Shown here piece by piece: positions 5,427 through 28,193 of a DNA stretch of 64,000 nt. Both the position numbers and the translations under genes were made by a program. Position 1 is the stretch's first letter. Every line of letters starts with the position of its first letter. The notes below the pieces were generated by a model. The model was given only the letters and a program-made list of their open reading frames with translations. It searched no databases and had not been told where the DNA came from. Origin of the DNA: Muricauda sp. SCSIO 64092 (GTDB lineage: Bacteria > Bacteroidota > Bacteroidia > Flavobacteriales > Flavobacteriaceae); assembly GCF_023016285.1 (NCBI RefSeq), contig NZ_CP095413.1, forward strand, positions 5,284,501 to 5,348,500, in the 5' to 3' direction.

Positions 5427-5996
5427 TTGGGGACAAGAATCGATATAAAGAGATGGTTGCTAGCAACGAGGCATCCACCACCTTTTCAATGGACGCCTAT
5501 GAAAGGTAACACCTACCCCCCGAATGCAAATCCTACCGTAAAAGGAAACATTCCTACCGAAGAAATCAGGGCCAATTTTTCAGTTCCCAAACCTGATAGT
5601 ATTTTCAGAGCGGGGAGTGGACCAAAATCCTCTAGCACTGGTTTTAAAAATGCCATCAAAAAGTTTAATGGGGATTTTCCTGTTGGCTACATTCCCTTTA
5701 AAATAAACAATACGCTTCCTTCTGGAAATTATGGAATCCCCGACCAGGATCCGTTCCACCTTTTCGATACCGGCCCTTGGGATGTCCCTCCAATTCCCTT
5801 TTTCGTCCCCAATTCAACCGATTTCAACACTTTTTTTGGTCATACTATTATAGTAAAATTAAGATTTGCCAAAGGCAATCTTCTGAGTTGTGGATGTAGC
5901 GAAATCCATATTGGGTGGTATTCTCCATGGAGCAATCCAGTAAGCTCTTTCAGCTATAAGACTGAAAATGAAATGGTATATAACATAAGAAAATGA
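5427..5996 (+). CDS. Hypothetical protein coupled to the YD-repeat gene, probably 5'-frameshifted
   Basis: The open frame ends in a TGA that overlaps the ATG of the next gene (ATGA at 5993), which indicates co-translation with the YD-repeat companion. The reliable part is about residues 25-189: Pro/Phe/Asn-rich with aromatic patches (WDVPPIPFFVP, HIGWYSPWS) and a CGC motif; no signal peptide and no recognised domain. The first ~25 codons look unnatural. An overlapping frame at 5258-5509 reads more protein-like (PYADPCCCPFPYPDFGDK) and would join this one if a single base near 5507 were removed. I therefore suspect a frameshifted gene whose true start is upstream. Confidence 0.4.
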   Translation: MGTRIDIKRWLLATRHPPPFQWTPMKGNTYPPNANPTVKGNIPTEEIRANFSVPKPDSIFRAGSGPKSSSTGFKNAIKKFNGDFPVGYIPFKINNTLPSGNYGIPDQDPFHLFDTGPWDVPPIPFFVPNSTDFNTFFGHTIIVKLRFAKGNLLSCGCSEIHIGWYSPWSNPVSSFSYKTENEMVYNIRK

Positions 5997-8900
5997 AAAG
6001 AACACTTCTAGTGATTAGCCTGCTATGCTTTGGCATAAGACCCTACGCACAGGGTTTGCCCAAGGTAATCCCCCCGACCCCTGATGTTGCCGCATTGGGT
6101 CAATTTGGAGAATATCCAGTAGCAACAAATTACGGTACCGTACCGGTATCGATACCCCTATTTGAACTCACGTCTGGGGATATTACCGTACCGGTGTACA
6201 TAGCCTACCATACAGGGGGCATTAAGGTGAACCAAGAGGCCACGTCCATTGGTCTCGGGTGGAGCTTGAACGCCGGGGGCACTATCTCCAAATCGGTGCG
6301 AGGAGCAGATGACAGGAGTAAGAAACGTGACCTTCAAACCAAAAACACAAGCTTTTTGTTCGATGGTTCGGCCACTTTGAACAATTACTATAATGTGAAG
6401 CCGACATTGGCCTATGAAGATGGCAACCACGAGGTCTTCTTTTTGGACTATCGTATTGTGGGCCAAGAGGTGGACGGCCAATCCGATGTCTATTTTTTCA
6501 ACTTTATGGACCGTTCGGGAAAATTCGTCTTCAAGGGCGGCGGCACCAATGATGTATTGATATATCCGGTACAACAGAACCTCAAGTTCGATTTCAAGAA
6601 AAATGTAAGGAGCAACCTTTTGCCGGGGGCCGGTTACATGGACGGTTTTCATGTGACCGGGGACAACGGGCTGGAATATTGGTTCTACGACCAGGAAAGT
6701 GTACTACATACAAGTCCTACGAACGTGACCCATAAAACGGCCACGGCATGGAACCTTTCACAGATCCATTCCATGACCTCGGACAGTTATATATTGTTCG
6801 ACTACGATGATTTTGATTATTCGAAGTGGAACTACAGTTACTACAACGATTATGACCCTACCATTAATGCAGGCAGGATTCCGAGCTTTTTCACACAGGC
6901 CATTTCCTCCAATTATTTTCATAGGGTCAACTCGACTTCGGTAGATTACCAGACCAAGGCCCTAAAAGAGATCCGGGCCTATGACCATAATGACGTTGGT
7001 GGGGCCAAATTGGTACTGGAGACGGCCGAGGACCGGGAAGACCAAATGGCGAACCGGGGCTTCCGTTATAAGTCCATTACCCTTTTCGATAAATATGGGC
7101 AACAGATCAAAAAGGCCATTTTCCACCATTCCTATTTCAATGCCAAGAACGGTTATGTCGAGAGTTTTGCCAACAACCTACAGGGAAAAAAACGGATGCG
7201 CCTTGATTCGGTAACCATTATCGGAAAGACCGATGTAGTGAAGCAGGTCTACCGTTTTGAATATCACAGCGAAAAACTGCCCCATATCAATTCTCTGGAA
7301 AGGGACTATTGGGGCTATTACAATGGCAGGGACGCACAAAAAATACTGCCTTCCGCACCATATACCAGCTATAACGGCGCAGATTTGAATTCGCACCCGG
7401 ACCGGATACTGGCGGGCAGTCTCAAACGCGTATATTATCCTACAGGAGGTTATACGGAATTTGAGTTTGAGGCCAATGAAGTGCGTGCCAGTAGCACGAC
7501 CATGCCGATTACCGAGCCAATCACCAAAATCTACTCAGAATCGGGCATCTGCCAAGGAAACCATAATGCGTACATATACCGCGAAGTTGATGTGACAGGG
7601 GTTGTCAATTTATCGGTCGACGTGACCATCAACTTCCCCAATATCCCCGCCAACGCTTTTGGGGGCACGCACCCCAAAGACGTGGTTTCCGGAAATTTTG
7701 TGACCATTCGCGGGGCAGGTAGTACGGCCATAACCGTCGATGGGACCGGATACTATCTGGACGCTGGTTTCTATAAGCATGACCCCGTTACCGTTCAAAA
7801 CCAAACTTTTGTAAACCAGAATACCGGCAGCCAAGATCTGATCTTGGTCAGTTATAGATATATCTGCAGCAATGATGGGTTCAATGCCTATGGTCCCCAG
7901 ATACGGATAAATTATGACAGGCTCTATGGTGGTAGTGGGCAACAGTTCTTCAACGCTCCTGCCGGGGGATTGCGCATCAAAAAAATTACCAATAGGACCG
8001 AAAACGGTATCGCACAAATCAAAGAATATGGTTATACCCACGGAAATGGCAACAGTACCGGAACCTTTGTGCACACAGGTGGCCTGCCCACGCAATCATA
8101 CACAAAACAGGAATTTTGGGGAGGTGCCACTCCAGGTGCACAGGGCAGCAAACGCAATATTATAAGGGTGTTTGACCGCTCGTTGTACGATCTGAATATT
8201 TCCGGCAGCACCGTTTGTTACGGGAAGGTCACCGAGACACTTAAGAACGGCAGTGGCCAGACCTTGGGGAGAACGGAATATCGGTATGGTACCACAAGGA
8301 ACAGCAACTCGGCCGCTTTGGGCTTTCCCTTTGCACCCTTACAGGACAAAGGCCATAAACGTAGCTTGAAGTCCAAAAGGGTGTACAATGCCAGCAACGA
8401 CCTGGTATATAAGGACACTATTGTGGATACCTATACCGGTCTGCAAGAGGCCAAGCAGTTACTGGTCAGGGGACTTTTGACCCATAGGTCAAATGGCATG
8501 GGGACGGAATTTTTTGATGAGCAAAAAGCAGCATTATGGGAATATGATTGGTCTAAAATTACAGTTAATTACTACAATGGCGGCGGTTTTTCCGATGGCT
8601 TTGGTGCCAATCCCAACATTAAAAACCATTACAGCATCATAAATGAGTATATGAGCAGTAGCCAGGTGACTACCACACGCTACGATACGGATGGCAATAA
8701 CCCCAATGTAACGGTAACGACCAACACCTATGGCAACTCCGCACACTTACAGGTGACCAGTTCGGATATCAGGGACTCAAGCGGTGATGGGTCAAGGACC
8801 AAGATGCATTACCCTGACGATATTGGCACCGCGTTGACCGTAGGGGGCAATCTTGATGCCACGGACGCTTCCGTAATTGGGCTTTTGCGCGGCGACAATA

Positions 8901-16553: not shown

Positions 16554-16590
16554 GCGAGTTGTTTTTGGATGTCCTTTTGGAATACGCCCC

Positions 16591-16609
16591 CCCCAGCTAG
16601 CGCGAGGGT
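16591..16609. repeat. Truncated palindromic junction element
   Basis: A C-run followed by GCTAGCGCGAGGG matches the left arm (GCTAGCGC) of the elements at 24507 and 27317. It is cut where homology to the Rhs core of the full-length gene begins (CACTATACCGCC, equal to about 13002). Confidence 0.5.
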
Positions 16610-19929: not shown

Positions 19930-19972
19930 ACCGCTAGTCCCACTGGTGCGCGATTAGCTTAGCATATCGCGT
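19930..19972. repeat. Palindromic junction element (variant type)
   Basis: The stretch contains CCGCTAG, as in the other junction elements, then CGCGAT (19949) and its inverted copy ATCGCG (19966) around an 11-nt spacer. The next Rhs fragment begins within a few bases of it. It is a different sequence from the pair at 24507/27317 but in the same structural position. Confidence 0.45.
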
Positions 19973-20044
19973 TCCCAGAACCTGCAGCAAAAAGGGTATA
20001 CCGCCCTGGACGGTAGCGGACAGGTCACCTCATTCTCCGGTACC

Positions 20045-23221: not shown

Positions 23222-24513
23222 GGCAATGTATATCTAGTGTAAATTTAAACAATAATGACTTACATTGTAGTGAACTCTTTGCCTTTAGGATAAACTACAA
23301 CGACCCCCAGAATTTTGGGGTGGAGGAGAACTCTACTGCACTTTTTAACGGGAACATCTCCCAGATTATATGGAAGACGGCCAGTACATATGCAAGTGGT
23401 CACCCTGTAAGTTAAAGGTACTCGTTCGGCTATGATGGACTGAACCGCATCATAAGCGCAGCGGACAATACGGGCAAGTTCAACGTATCCGGCATCATCT
23501 ATGACAAGAATGGTAACATAGGCAAATTGAAGCGTTTGGGCTGGACCGTTGAAAGTCCTTCCTTGGTCCTAAATACAGGTTTTGGTACCATGGACGACCT
23601 GGTCTATACCTACGGCAGTGGCAACAAGCCCACCAAGGTGCTGGACAATGGGAACAAAACCTATGGCTTTAAGGATGGCAACACCGATGGCCATGACTAT
23701 TGGTACGATGCCAACGGCAATATGGTCCGTGACCTGAACAAGGGCATTGGGACGGCCAGTGTGGATGGGATTGGCTATAACCACCTGGACCTGCCCACAG
23801 AGGTAAAGTTTGACAACAGCAGTGCTAAAAAGATTACCTATATTTACGATGCCCTTGGAACGAAGCTAAAGAAAATGACCTACAGCAACGGTGTTTCGAC
23901 CACGACCGATTATGCGGGTAACTACGTTTATGAGAATAATGCCCTACAGTTCTTCAGCCACCCGGAGGGCTACGTGATGCCCAATAGCAGCGGTGGCTAT
24001 GATTACGTCTACCAGTATAGGGACCACTTGGGGAATGTACGGCTATCGTACACCGATAACAACGGAACCCTTGAGATTGTTGAGGAGAACAACTATTATC
24101 CTTTTGGGCTTAAACATAAAGGGTACAATAGTAATATAAGTGCTTTGGGGAACAGTGTGGCCCAACGTTGGAAGTTTGGGGGCAAGGAGTTTGATGAGGG
24201 GCATGACCTCAACACCTATGATTTTGGGGCCAGAAATTATATGCCCGATATTGGACGGTGGGGGAATATGGATCCGTTGGCTGAATTCATGCGTAACCAA
24301 TCACCTTTTAACTTTGGGTTCAACAACCCTATATATTTCAGCGATTATGCTGGGACCATTCCTTGGCCAGTACCAGAAATGTTCAGAAACTGGTATAGAA
24401 GGTTAGGTAGCCCTTTTGGACCAAGAACTAGAAATGGGAGAACTAAAAACCATAATGGGGTAGATATTAATTTTTCTAGAGGATATAATACAGATTATGG
24501 CGCCCCCCGCTAG
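23215..24513 (+). pseudogene. Headless Rhs cassette 4, nonsense-interrupted, with truncated M23 peptidase tip
   Basis: Rhs similarity starts near 23265 (ELFAFRINYNDPQNF). A TAA at 23413 interrupts the frame exactly where the full-length gene has a Glu codon (NLVSERYSFGYD becomes HPVS*RYSFGYD). The frame then continues through the core (DHLGNVRLSYTDN, MPDIGRWGNMDP) to a tip with YRRLGSPFGP and NHNGVDI, the start of a LytM/M23 peptidoglycan endopeptidase domain with its first zinc-ligand motif. The domain is cut after ~40 residues: the stop codon TAG at 24511 is supplied by the palindromic element. No immunity gene follows. Confidence 0.75.
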
Positions 24514-24554
24514 CGCTCGTCTGCGACGAGTGCCGTATCGAGTAGGCAAAAAAC
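24507..24554. repeat. 48-bp palindromic junction element, copy A
   Basis: Forty-six of 48 bases match 27317-27364. It contains the palindrome CGCTAGCG, then a 9-bp stem (GCGCTCGTC / GACGAGTGC, one G-T pair) with a 3-nt loop, and a constant tail GTATCGAGTAGGCAAAAAAC. The only two differences lie in the hairpin loop (TGC versus TCT), as expected for a structured, REP-like element. It truncates the M23 tip of cassette 4. Confidence 0.75.
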
Positions 24555-24569
24555 AAAAAAACCTAACAG

Positions 24570-24598
24570 AAGCCATGACGTATGTTGTGGCTTTTTTA
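24570..24598 (+). terminator. Intrinsic terminator after cassette 4
   Basis: A ten-pair stem AAGCCATGAC / GTTGTGGCTT (two G-T pairs) with a 4-nt loop is followed by TTTTTT. It stands alone behind the junction element and is probably all that remains of a lost tip/immunity unit. Confidence 0.65.
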
Positions 24599-24621
24599 TT
24601 ATTGGGATTTCTCACATACAC

Positions 24622-26712
24622 GATTACCTGAACACTACGGACATTGTGGAAACGGAGCTGGACTTTGGGGGCAAGGTGGTACGGACCAAGGCCTCCCATA
24701 CCAAGGGGACCAATGCGGCCCTGATCACTACGGATAGTCTTAGCTATGACCATAGGGGCCGGTTGGTCAAACAGGAGCAGACCATAGGCTCGCATACCGA
24801 AACGATTGTGGAGAACGGCTATGATGACCTGGGCCGGTTGGTAAGCAAAAAGGTGGGCGGGGGCCTACAGGACGTGGACTATAGGTACAATGTACGTGGG
24901 TGGCTCACGGACATCAACGATGTGGGTAACACCGCCAAATTGTTTAATTTTAGGATTGGTTACAACCAAGGGACCAATCCATTGTACAACGGCAATATCA
25001 GCCGGACCCAATGGAGGACGGCCAATAGTGACGACAGTTCTTTGAAATCCTATGACTATACCTATGATGCACTGAACCGCATCATAAGCGCAGCGGACAA
25101 TACGGGCAAGTTCAACGTATTCGGCATCATCTATGACAAGAATGGAAACATAGGCAAATTGAAGCGTTTGGGCTGGACCGTTGAAAGTCCTTCCTTGGTC
25201 CTAAATACAGGTTTTGGTACCATGGACGACCTGGTCTATACCTACGACAATGGCAACAAGCTCACCAAGGTGCTGGACAATGGGAACGACAGCCATGGCT
25301 TTACGGACAGCTCGGCCAACAACCAGGACTACTGGTACGATGCCAACGGGAACATGGTGCGCGACCTGAACAAGGGGATTGGGACGTCCACTGTGGACGG
25401 GATAAGCTATAACCACCTGAACCTGCCTCAGGAAATAAAGTTTGACAACAACAATAATAAAAAGATCAACTATATTTATGATGCCTTGGGCACCAAAATG
25501 CAAAAGGTGGCCAATGACAACGGTTCTTTGACAACCACGGACTATGCTGGGAATTATATCTATGAGAATGGTACCCTACAGTTTTTCTCCCATCCCGAGG
25601 GTTATGTCAACGCCAATGGCGGAGGCTTTGAGTATGTCTACCAATACAAGGACCATTTGGGGAACGTACGTTTGTCCTATACGGATGACCCCAGTAACCC
25701 CGGTACACCTACCATTATTGAGGAAAACAATTACTATCCCTTTGGGCTTAAGCATAAGGGGTACAATAGCAATGTAAGTTCATTGGGGAACAGTGCGGCC
25801 CAACGTTGGAAGTTTGGGGGTAAGGAGTTTGATGAGGGTCATGACCTAAACACCTATGATTTTGGGGCAAGGAACTATGACCCTTGGATAGGGCGTTGGT
25901 TCAATACAGATCCCCTTGTTCAGTTTGAAAGCCCATACGTATATGCTGGCAATGACCCTGTCCGTTACATAGACCCAACGGGAATGTACTCTACCGATGA
26001 ATGGAAAAAGGACAATGGAATCAGCGACGACGATTTGGTAACCGTATATCAGGCAGATGATTCCCAAGGTGGTGATGAAGACTGTTGTGGAGACGATGAT
26101 GATGGTGGAATCATTGGTAATTTGATAAGTTCTGTTAAGAGCTTCTTCAGTAGTATTGGTTCCGAAGATGGTCCAGACGAGGAAAGTCGCAAGAGTATCA
26201 ATAGAACTTCTTCTGGATTTAGGCAGGCCGCAAAGAATACAAATGAGGTGGCGGAATCGTTCGATGTGGTCGGTGCATCTTCACCAGCAAGGTTGGCTGC
26301 TGCCCTCTCCAATGGAGAAATATCGGTAGCAGAGTACTATGAAAGGATGAATGATTACCTAGGTACAGATAATACCGTTAAAGGAGATGCGATATGGAGT
26401 GCTGTATTCTTTATGCCTGGTGGCGGAGAAATAAAAGCTGGTGGTAAAACCATTCAATTTCTAGGGCGTGGCTCTACAGGAAGGGCTATAGCTAATTCTC
26501 TTCCTGAACAACTGGCAATGAAAGAAATTTTATCTAACCCAAATCTTGGCAGGGTCGTGATGGAGGGAATGAAGGATGGTCGATGGGCAGGATGGAATAA
26601 GATGCAGTATACCCATAGAGCTTTGGACGGTACAAAAACTACTATACATTATGTTGGTCAGTTTGAAAATGGTGTGCTTAAAGCCGTTGATGATTTTAAA
26701 TTTGTTAAATAA
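24622..26712 (+). CDS. Headless Rhs cassette 5 with BECR-like nuclease tip
   Basis: Homology to the full-length gene begins at 24622 (DYLNTTDIVETELDFGGK); no signal peptide or native start exists (first GTG 24646). Core motifs are complete (YKDHLGNVRLSYTDD; YDPWIGRWFNTDP; RYIDPTGMY). The tip starts at ~25986 with an acidic CCGDDDDGG stretch and a helical linker. It ends in a ~70-residue domain: LPEQLAMKEIL, MKDGRWAGWNKMQY, THYV-type IHYVGQFENG and DDFKFVK. This pattern resembles Barnase/EndoU/ColicinE5-RelE (BECR) fold tips of polymorphic toxins, with RNase activity as the likely role. That assignment is tentative. Confidence 0.7.
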   Translation, partial: DYLNTTDIVETELDFGGKVVRTKASHTKGTNAALITTDSLSYDHRGRLVKQEQTIGSHTETIVENGYDDLGRLVSKKVGGGLQDVDYRYNVRGWLTDINDVGNTAKLFNFRIGYNQGTNPLYNGNISRTQWRTANSDDSSLKSYDYTYDALNRIISAADNTGKFNVFGIIYDKNGNIGKLKRLGWTVESPSLVLNTGFGTMDDLVYTYDNGNKLTKVLDNGNDSHGFTDSSANNQDYWYDANGNMVRDLNKGIGTSTVDGISYNHLNLPQEIKFDNNNNKKINYIYDALGTKMQKVANDNGSLTTTDYAGNYIYENGTLQFFSHPEGYVNANGGGFEYVYQYKDHLGNVRLSYTDDPSNPGTPTIIEENNYYPFGLKHKGYNSNVSSLGNSAAQRWKFGGKEFDEGHDLNTYDFGARNYDPWIGRWFNTDPLVQFESPYVYAGNDPVRYIDPTGMYSTDEWKKDNGISDDDLVTVYQADDSQGGDEDCCGDDDDGGIIGNLISSVKSFFSSIGSEDGPDEESRKSINRTSSGFRQAAKNTNEVAESFDVVGASSPARLAAALSNGEISVAEYYERMNDYLGTDNTVKGDAIWSAVFFMPGGGEIKAGGKTIQFLGRGSTGRAIANSLPEQLAMKEILSNPNLGRVVMEGMKDGRWAGWNKMQYTHRALDGTKTTIHYVGQFENGVLKAVDDFKFVK

Positions 26713-26717
26713 TATTT

Positions 26718-27149
26718 ATGAAGGTAAGATGTATTCATAATTCAGGGGAAGCATTAAGGGCTTATGAAAATAAGCAACTAAATAAAGATGAAATAGGGAG
26801 ATTTGGTGCTACAGGATATACTGAATATGGAGAAGTAGAAATAGGTAAGGAATATTTAGTGATGGGGATTATAGTTTTTGAAACCTATCAAGCATACCTA
26901 ATTGATGATGATGGTTTTATATCTGCTTGCCCTTGTCAACTATTTGAAGTACTTGATGATAAAGTAGGCACAAATTGGAGTTTTAGATTAATTGATAAGG
27001 ATGAGAGTGCTTATCCTTCCATACAAGCTATTATCGGGTATCCCGAATTATGTTCTGATAAAGAAGCGTACGAAAATCTTATAATAGAGAAAAAAGAAGT
27101 TGCACAGCGGATTTATTTTAAACGAAAAATTGAGCTTGAAAATCTGTAA
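26718..27149 (+). CDS. Candidate immunity protein of cassette 5
   Basis: The 143-aa cytoplasmic-type protein starts 5 bp after the cassette 5 stop, and a strong terminator follows it. It has features of a small beta-rich fold (EVEIGKEYLVMGIIVFETYQ, PCQLFEVLDDKVGTNW) and a helical C-terminus (EAYENLIIEKKEVAQRIYF). No family is named with confidence. Position, size and AT-rich composition support an immunity role against the adjacent nuclease-like tip. Confidence 0.6.
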   Translation: MKVRCIHNSGEALRAYENKQLNKDEIGRFGATGYTEYGEVEIGKEYLVMGIIVFETYQAYLIDDDGFISACPCQLFEVLDDKVGTNWSFRLIDKDESAYPSIQAIIGYPELCSDKEAYENLIIEKKEVAQRIYFKRKIELENL

Positions 27150-27171
27150 CTAGAGTTTACCATAAAAACAG

Positions 27172-27200
27172 AAAGCCACAGTGAAAGCTGTGGTTTTTTT
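27172..27200 (+). terminator. Intrinsic terminator of cassette 5
   Basis: The stem CCACAG / CTGTGG is extended by AAAG / TTTT pairs, with a 6-nt loop and a T-run, 22 bp after the immunity gene. Confidence 0.85.
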
Positions 27201-27236
27201 ATGCGTAGGTGTTACGCGCAAACGAAAGTGATTGGT

Positions 27237-27312
27237 CTATCTGTTCAAAAAGAACTCGGAAAATGCCTTGGTGTTCCGCTCCACGGCATCGGGGTCTATG
27301 AGCAGCTTTCCC
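27237..27312 (-). pseudogene. 3' terminal fragment of an unidentified gene
   Basis: On the minus strand about 25 codons read GGKLLIDPDAVERNTKAF...FLNR and end in TAG (27237). The upstream part is cut off exactly at the palindromic element. The composition is protein-like, but the fragment is too short to assign. It is another sign of a recombination join. Confidence 0.35.
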
Positions 27313-27316
27313 CCCA

Positions 27317-27364
27317 CCGCTAGCGCTCGTCTCTGACGAGTGCCGTATCGAGTAGGCAAAAAAC
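27317..27364. repeat. 48-bp palindromic junction element, copy B
   Basis: This is the same element as 24507-24554 (two loop differences). It separates a cut minus-strand gene end from the tail of a lost Rhs tip. Confidence 0.75.
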
Positions 27365-27430
27365 CCGGCACCAGCACCTAAGCCACAACCTGTGATACCA
27401 AGGCCCAACTGTGTGGACTGTGGATTTTAA
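27362..27430 (+). pseudogene. Tail of a lost Rhs tip (cassette 6)
   Basis: An open frame coming out of the junction element reads a Pro-rich end (PAPAPKPQPVIPRPN, then CVDCGF) and stops at 27428. It is followed 18 bp later by a lipoprotein gene, the same tip-to-immunity geometry as in cassettes 1-5. Only about 22 codons survive. Confidence 0.45.
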
Positions 27431-27448
27431 AATGAGAAACCAAAAGAT

Positions 27449-27955
27449 ATGATACGAATAAAATTGACCGTAGTCGTTTTGATAATGTTGGCAGCATTTT
27501 CCTGTAAACAGGAACCTCGCAACAAAGAGGCTTCTCCAAATGCCATTGAACCGCCTAACTCGTACAAAAAGGCGGAGGCAAATGAAGATATTGAAATCTT
27601 TACAGAAATGGCCAAAGACTGCGACCAGACCTTTGATGACTTCTTTAAAAGGTTTGCCAGGGACAGCACCTTTCAAAAAACTAGGGTCAAATTCCCATTA
27701 AGGTTATCCTATTATAAAGATGTTTTAGATGATAGTTTGTCTATTGATGTTATTAAAAAATCATCGTATAGTTATATTGATCTTAGAGAAAACAATCCGA
27801 TGGTAGGTAATGACTATGAAGTTTCATTTGAAGAAAATGGTAACCAAATGGATTACTATTTAACGGGAATTGATAATGGTATTCTGATTACTTATGTATT
27901 CAAACAGAATGAAAACTGTTGGTATTTGGTGGAGATATTGGACGAATCCACATGA
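27449..27955 (+). CDS. DUF4348-type lipoprotein, candidate orphan immunity protein
   Basis: The 168-aa protein has a lipoprotein signal (VVLIMLAAFSCKQ). The DUF4348 hallmark occurs around residues 60-85: a block beginning FDDFFKRFARDS followed by KTRVKFPLRL; an aromatic C-terminus (CWYLVEILD) ends it. DUF4348 is a domain of unknown function found in Bacteroidota lipoproteins. Its place right behind a surviving tip tail suggests an immunity protein kept after the toxin was lost; this is inference. Confidence 0.65.
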   Translation: MIRIKLTVVVLIMLAAFSCKQEPRNKEASPNAIEPPNSYKKAEANEDIEIFTEMAKDCDQTFDDFFKRFARDSTFQKTRVKFPLRLSYYKDVLDDSLSIDVIKKSSYSYIDLRENNPMVGNDYEVSFEENGNQMDYYLTGIDNGILITYVFKQNENCWYLVEILDEST

Positions 27956-28073
27956 TTAAAGAAGAATCCCCGCTCCGCACATCCACTAAAGGCGGACAGG
28001 GTTGTACGGCTGCGGCATGAGCGTTTTTAAAAGTTTTGATAATAAAGCGAAGCAGTCAAGCTACTTCGCAGCG
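27956..28073. other. Spacer between last immunity gene and right flank of the island
   Basis: There is no coding sequence. It contains a small inverted repeat (GCGAAG at 28047 and CTTCGC at 28064) immediately before the duplicated eamA segment begins, so the join lies at or near this hairpin. Confidence 0.4.
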
Positions 28074-28193
28074 GGAGCCCCAAATCACAAATGGCAAAGA
28101 ACGCTAAAATGATGAGCGTGGTCTTTTTCTTTTCCTGCATTGATTAAAAGAAATGGCTATGGAATTCAATATTACGTCGAATAATTAAATTTT
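28074..28193. repeat. Right copy of the ~120-bp island-flanking direct repeat (truncated eamA start)
   Basis: It matches 4563-4684. On the minus strand it still encodes MQEKKKTTLIILAFFAI from an ATG at 28140, but a 2-bp deletion changes the frame and homology ends after ~22 codons, so this is a dead eamA 5' fragment. It was created by duplication at insertion, or left by a rearrangement. Confidence 0.85.

Follow-up and report, generated by a model that had tools for sequence, protein, structure and literature searches.

The question raised by this locus is what a short palindromic element is doing at the joins between truncated Rhs toxin cassettes. The DNA analysed (the window) was the whole stretch of 64,000 nucleotides at positions 5,284,501 to 5,348,500 of the forward strand of contig NZ_CP095413.1 of Muricauda sp. 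SCSIO 64092; the genome is one 5.69-Mb contig (C1). Orphan Rhs tip-immunity cassettes are arrays of 5'-truncated Rhs fragments and immunity genes behind an intact Rhs gene, and in the usual model they are exchanged through homologous core sequence, no mobile-element end being involved. An earlier reading of the letters of the window (the sequence-only reading) had placed two copies of a 48-bp element resembling a repetitive extragenic palindrome (REP) exactly at cassette joins, and had considered it a possible substrate of a dedicated cassette-moving activity. On sequence comparison, the element is almost certainly the left terminal REP, with a leader of ~20 bp, of an element carrying a REP-associated tyrosine transposase (RAYT) like TnpA_REP subclass 2.6; RAYTs of this kind, whose genes adjoin Rhs genes in many marine flavobacteria, very probably prefer Rhs loci across the family; and the overall reading, which joins REP-RAYT ends, Rhs preference and a putative RAYT movement of DNA between REP ends, appears fairly probable as a whole.

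The element lies in the window as follows (window positions):
24503..24508, plus strand: C-run, immediately 5' of the GCTA foot of copy 1.
24507..24554, plus strand: element copy 1; GCTA foot 24509-24512, hairpin 24513-24533, leader to 24554.
27317..27364, plus strand: element copy 2; GCTA foot 27319-27322, hairpin 27323-27343, leader the same as in copy 1.

As the sequence-only reading had stated, the two copies are identical in 46 of 48 bases and both mismatches fall inside the 3-nt loop (tgc, tct); a repeat search of the window paired 24503-24554 with 27313-27364 (94%, family D9). Each copy consists of a C-rich run, the GCTA foot, a 9-bp stem with one G.T pair, the 3-nt loop and the leader GTATCGAGTAGGCAAAAAAC. 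A 40-base pattern taken from the element (≤3 mismatches) found just these two copies in the window and none in 100 shuffles; the string GCTAGCGC occurs at three window positions (16596, 24509 and 27319) and nowhere on the minus strand. Folding as single-stranded DNA gave −8.2 kcal/mol for the top strand, which forms the 9-bp stem, and −7.1 kcal/mol for the bottom strand, which forms a 6-bp stem and a second short helix. The hairpin energy of both 48-mers was unremarkable relative to shuffles (z −1.3 and −1.9), and the argument for the element is therefore based on its recurrence. A viral origin was rejected, the 23-bp exact core being found in none of the viral contigs searched.

The whole genome was searched with a 32-base pattern (≤3 mismatches): six copies were found, none in the reversed control; two lie in the window, three in locus L007 (C1 1.997-2.003 Mb) and one in locus L008 (4.565 Mb), and all six are inside Rhs loci. 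The palindrome alone (≤3 mismatches) gave eight matches (control 0), the two additional ones flanking a gene in L008. With a wider palindrome pattern 13 rows were obtained, i.e., 12 distinct places (one row is another read in reverse). Eleven of these places belong to Rhs loci, and the remaining one, at 5490818, adjoins ordinary genes; a C-rich run precedes the foot in 12/12 aligned genome copies, interrupted in some by one foreign base. Copies thus cluster in Rhs loci, and the hundreds of scattered copies that the sequence-only reading had named as the contrary outcome are absent.

That reading had also asked for a REP-associated transposase or a tyrosine recombinase elsewhere in the genome. 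The PF01797 (Y1 transposase) profile gave three matches, two related genes, both in Rhs loci and between inverted palindromes, and a third at C1 5487757 with an internal stop:
L008 9036-9518, minus strand: RAYT1, with an in-frame TGA (early stop).
L020 6569-7129: RAYT2, intact.

The two proteins share 77% identity over 160 residues; both passed the PF01797 cut-off, and against NCBIfam NF047646 (cut-off 80) RAYT2 scored above (82.6) and the truncated RAYT1 below (75.1). RAYT1 is flanked by inverted REPs at L008 9599 and 8921 with the same stem as the 48-bp element, RAYT2 by inverted REPs at ~L020 6451 and 7161 with another stem in the same layout. Each gene stands directly behind an Rhs gene and an immunity-like neighbour (so called from its position) and precedes a cut tip tail (recognized by eye), followed by further genes. 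Of 80 related loci, 56 had a REP on the left side of the gene in the REP scan and 58 had one on the right side. In locus L056 the RAYT left end is a REP followed by the leader GCCGTACCGAGTAAGACAATAAAAAAC; because the left end in relatives is a REP plus leader, the 48-bp element is interpreted as such a left end from which the RAYT itself is missing.

Residues H60, H62, Y144, N148 and P149 are invariant among 22 aligned RAYT sequences, and the RAYT profile matched E. coli TnpA_REP (PDB 4er8, E = 1.7e-5). The WQ motif is present; the tyrosine motif reads YIHGNP and YVHNNP in the own pair and YIHNNP in the consensus; the residue preceding HuH is S in 19/22 and N in 3/22 sequences (subclass 2.6 motifs: YIH[QN]NP and NH[LIV]H). 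The HUH and catalytic-tyrosine motifs were interpreted according to the available passages of Quentin et al. 2018 (PMC6006769), where subclass 2.6 (RAYT group 5) is mostly from Bacteroidetes, carries W-Q and Y-I-H-x-N-P motifs, and has genes flanked by palindromes without a GT[AG]G foot, described as atypical and with copies elsewhere in the genome. The WQ and YIHxNP motifs of the present family, its Bacteroidetes hosts and its non-GT[AG]G foot (GCTA or GCTC) are compatible with this subclass; the C-run/GCTA foot/9-bp G.T stem layout, the preference for Rhs loci and the cargo-bearing units do not appear in those passages, and Rhs is not mentioned in the main text of that paper.

The canonical REP has GTAG or an unpaired CGTC at the hairpin foot, and in the 48-bp element that place is taken by GCTA (GCTC in some relatives); the GTAG- and CGTC-tagged REPs in the passages available of PMC3733652 are likewise short stem-loops with a tag at one end. 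According to the available part of Bertels and Rainey 2011 (PMC3116915), two inverted REPs form a repeated unit beside the RAYT, the REPIN; its authors suggest that REPINs acquiring host-useful DNA could gain an advantage. REPINs are there placed in extragenic space, whereas units of the present family number a handful per genome, are concentrated in toxin loci and in some cases carry gene cargo; neither Rhs nor Bacteroidetes is mentioned in that paper. A structural scan of the window found no inverted partner for either window copy, and neither of them forms a REPIN there. The classical REPINs are reportedly present in high copy numbers.

In open-licence PMC literature nothing was found on RAYT with Rhs, and the results for RAYT with polymorphic toxin were off topic by titles and abstract starts; coverage was openly licensed PMC, so a subscription paper on the link could be missed.

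Preference for Rhs loci was measured in an even draw of 50 genomes of the window's family, including its own, with the public TIGR03696 model as Rhs core; RAYT loci outside the own genome were counted (n = 15, neighbouring matches collapsed). In 7/15 of them an Rhs core was located upstream, in the same orientation and ≤3 kb away (0.039 expected). As control, PF01609 (DDE_Tnp_1) transposases of the same genomes were within 10 kb of an Rhs core in 0/93 cases; in Rhs-bearing genomes only, the figures were 7/12 for RAYT versus 0/63 for PF01609 (Fisher p = 4e-7). A generic insertion hot spot at Rhs loci is thus unsupported. The same control bears on a passive account, possible if on the doubtful side, according to which selfish REP-RAYTs survive best in gene-poor, fast-decaying DNA behind Rhs-immunity pairs and joins arise by RecA-dependent or illegitimate recombination between short repeats, REPs being homology or scars: with 0/93 control transposases near Rhs, these loci are not general sinks. 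On the side of that account, RAYTs without detected Rhs are also co-directional with what precedes them, the nearest upstream open reading frame (ORF) of ≥150 aa being on the same strand in 29/32 loci, by eye.

Among the 80 closest RAYT loci of named genomes, a sample biased towards the own RAYT, 36 had an Rhs core ≤5 kb upstream in the same orientation, 0 had one upstream in the opposite orientation and 6 had one downstream; for the 57 loci with >5 kb on both sides the corresponding numbers were 30, 0 and 4, with neither in 26. Detection by tblastn, first profile and second profile gave Rhs in 34, 32 and 39 loci, respectively. The Rhs profile used for the 80 loci, for the 57 among them and for orphan starts was built partly from matches in those loci; the even-draw test with TIGR03696 is therefore the independent one.

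In a tree of 82 RAYTs, Rhs adjacency changed at least 17 times (bootstrap 16-19), six changes being forced by well-supported branches; shuffled labels gave a mean of 23.3, with 3/500 as low, so that weak clustering remains. One specialised Rhs-linked RAYT clade was rejected on these changes, which argue that the association was gained, or lost, many times.

The REP pattern matched 78 places, distributed over 15 of the 50 genomes, and none in the reversed control; in Rhs-bearing genomes 39/68 fell within 10 kb of an Rhs core, surroundings that make up 0.4-3.2% of each genome. Loci L115 and L116 (G017:C2:236000-262000) contain a group of ten pattern-matched REPs spread over 18 kb among ordinary-looking genes; the ten share one strand, many have common inner flanks, and Rhs core was not detected there. 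RAYTs of the same family also occurred close to genes of VgrG-like and DUF4280 type in Zobellia and to a gene for a WHH nuclease in Tenacibaculum (L037 4644-8644, L038 4939-6309, L105 3968-6229); other toxin loci may thus attract RAYTs too.

Where the mobile units end was judged from flanks. The structural scan found 280 REPs in the 80 loci versus 10 in the reversed control; of the same-genome REP pairs (315 REPs, 70 genome groups), 116 had the inner flank alone in common, 5 the outer flank alone and 37 both flanks, counts that are non-independent since copies form families. The dominance of inner-flank-only sharing identifies the GCTA foot as the outer end of the repeated or moved unit, and it fits REP-ended units better than the symmetric REP exchange of the passive account. 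The units bounded by this foot, as their sequences indicate, are whole RAYT elements, REPINs and some with other DNA. Locus L087 has two RAYT elements of 747 bp that are 99.5% identical and differ in their flanks. Paired-REP miniatures of ~130-215 bp account for many of the units, REPINs being present in L059, L065 and L038, with four near-identical ones in L059 and three in L065. The passive account draws on the same material, near-identical 160-bp REPINs (99-100%), several per locus as in L059, being ideal for homologous exchange.

Cargo is seen in the window to the right of copy 2, where the features are:
27355..27430, plus strand: in-frame tail, read as an Rhs tip tail (PAPAPKPQPVIPRPNCVDCGF, stop), joined to copy 2.
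27449..27955, plus strand: immunity-like lipoprotein gene; DUF4348; immunity role assigned from position.
27967..28080, plus strand: ~115-bp element with CCCCGCT / AGCGGGG-like ends; right boundary of the block common with L007 13848-14625.

Window 27319 and L007 9316, 13848 and 15194 are homologous rightwards from the REP foot and unrelated leftwards (alignment A3); with L007 13848 the homology runs through the tip tail, the immunity-like gene and the end of the ~115-bp element, after which the sequences diverge. Judged by this alignment, window 27319-28078 is one repeated unit that carries an Rhs tip tail and an immunity-like gene. The sequence-only reading had set copy 2 between a cut gene end and a tip tail; the tail-like frame on its 3' side was upheld, and the gene end on the left was recognized by eye only. 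In L040 (Flagellimonas pacifica) a ~750-bp unit with two small genes is present twice (96.8%), and in L060 (a Tenacibaculum) a REP with the first part of the adjacent gene recurs, cut by the RAYT's left REP. The first three REPINs of L059 stand ≤~30 bp behind an immunity-like gene, and the sequences that directly adjoin their right ends, in frame, are a tip-like tail, Rhs core from YQLTDHLGN and Rhs core from NIEGNYRYK; in L117 (G046) 4/5 REPs separate an immunity-like gene from the orphan that follows it.

The ~115-bp element forms two hairpins; BLAST matched it 12 times in the genome, for the most part within or close to Rhs loci (other matches: G000:C1 2003967, 2005593, 2422446, 2423299, 2423837, 2424020, 2430157, 4462900, 4466006, 4468195 and 4576310), with at least one more copy outside these 12 at L007 14521. 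It was rejected as Rhs-only, 3/12 matches being among ordinary genes.

The join at copy 1 comprises:
23527..24513, plus strand: orphan Rhs tip ORF, interrupted by copy 1; TAG stop 24511-24513 within the element.
24555..24619, plus strand: terminator-like repeat, 3' of copy 1; common to L008 and L007, behind other REPs.
24514..26709, plus strand: orphan Rhs reading frame, 5'-truncated; Rhs homology starts at 24625.

Copy 1 had been said to cut an M23 tip and to provide its stop codon; the stop is as described, and the M23-like label is a by-eye judgement from an HNGVD motif, ORF 23527-24513 having no match in a Pfam search. Placement of REPs behind immunity genes allows another, improbable explanation: that they serve as RNA hairpins (3'-end protection or termination) kept for expression control, with the joins a by-product. 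Several REPs and REPINs do directly follow an immunity-like gene, in the same orientation (L117, L059), and the terminator-like repeat accompanies two element copies; against this, the units have both ends defined and differing outer flanks, and REPs also interrupt open reading frames (24507; L007 13848).

Related palindromes had further been placed at 16591 and 19930, where the sequence is as follows:
16587..16602, plus strand: C-run and half REP (GCTAGCGCGA) fused straight onto Rhs core; homology from 16603.
19945..19974, plus strand: palindromic repeat of another kind (GGTGCGCGATTAGC..ATCGCGTTC), located at the 19930 join.

This held at 16591, a half palindrome fused to Rhs core; the 19930 site is no copy of the 48-bp element. 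The 16591 join resembles a fusion within half a REP, as the passive account would have it. The 19945-19974 repeat (GGTRCGCGATTAGC..ATCGCGTTC) has five genome matches and none in the reversed control. Each match is in or close to an Rhs locus, the farthest ~11 kb from an Rhs core; those outside the window are at G000:C1 2143914, 2148995, 2429404 and 4563042. Near the RAYT1/Rhs locus, a small ORF (HVYILYSPKFDKYYVGQT..), which we take to be GIY-YIG-like, is present in tandem at L008 6751-7763, as three near-identical copies.

That Rhs cassettes are moved by a dedicated recombinase of the tyrosine or integron type, with the palindrome as its specific site, is very improbable. In L040 an orphan Rhs fragment does have a Phage_integrase family gene (5529-6419) ~1 kb upstream; in the own genome 0/16 Phage_integrase matches are ≤10 kb from a listed Rhs core, and the palindromes flank Y1 (HUH) genes instead. 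The tyrosine recombinase that the sequence-only reading had offered as an alternative agent was rejected on this count.

The mechanism proposed is that the RAYT, a HUH/Y1 single-strand nuclease, would cut single-stranded DNA at REP feet and move the DNA between two of them, normally a RAYT element or a REPIN and sometimes neighbouring DNA; REPs and pieces of Rhs tip/immunity DNA would so be copied from one Rhs locus to another, and cassettes may later be lost or joined where near-identical REPs recombine. The cutting and moving step is drawn from the unit ends and from knowledge of HUH enzymes. RAYT-driven movement of cassette pieces is plausible on these grounds, the balance lying a little on the negative side of level. 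Of the cassette-moving activity first suggested, the end of a mobile unit is what stood; movement of cassettes by the RAYT is a proposal, to which the passive account is the main rival.

Several results weigh against the overall reading, in addition to the non-independence of the REP pairs. About half of the RAYT loci are away from Rhs, and some adjoin FeoB or aldo/keto reductase genes; RAYT1 has its in-frame stop; the REP patterns had no match at two own Rhs loci (C1 ~1.79 Mb and ~2.13 Mb), degenerate palindromes being visible at the latter despite this. The blocks at L007 9316 and 15194 stop within the immunity-like gene or close to its start, where no palindrome was seen, and among the loci compared there were no transposition events and no empty target sites. 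Orphan-like Rhs ORFs started ≤120 bp from a REP in 5/34 cases versus 97/998 control ORFs (p = 0.37; 98 loci), one of the 34 being counted twice owing to the overlap of L061 and L121, and the control rate being inflated because most loci were picked for carrying RAYTs. A general rule that orphan cassettes start at REPs, and with it a general presence of the element exactly at the joins, was not supported; REP joins are a feature of certain loci, not a law. Starts elsewhere without a REP link also accord with the passive account.

Several orphan Rhs fragments start instead at a conserved YYPFG motif: the orphan frame (stop-to-stop) begins ≤~20 residues from the core YYPFG at L040 562, L040 7448, L046 3717, L048 5633, L053 90, L069 897, L095 7751, L096 8472, L119 2883 and L124 10980 (several genera). 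Such starts look like a fixed entry point for cassette exchange, other than the REP.

A bolder version of the RAYT reading, that subclass-2.6-like flavobacterial RAYTs have been co-opted as Rhs shufflers, using any two REP feet as ends and copying the DNA between them, so that tip tails, immunity genes and other small genes would spread as REP-ended single-strand cassettes, is rather unlikely. At the strength given above, the palindrome and its RAYT are a testable candidate for how toxin cassettes are rearranged, and a RAYT family that settles at Rhs loci would tie together two questions, the role of RAYTs for their host and the rearrangement of Rhs tip/immunity cassettes.

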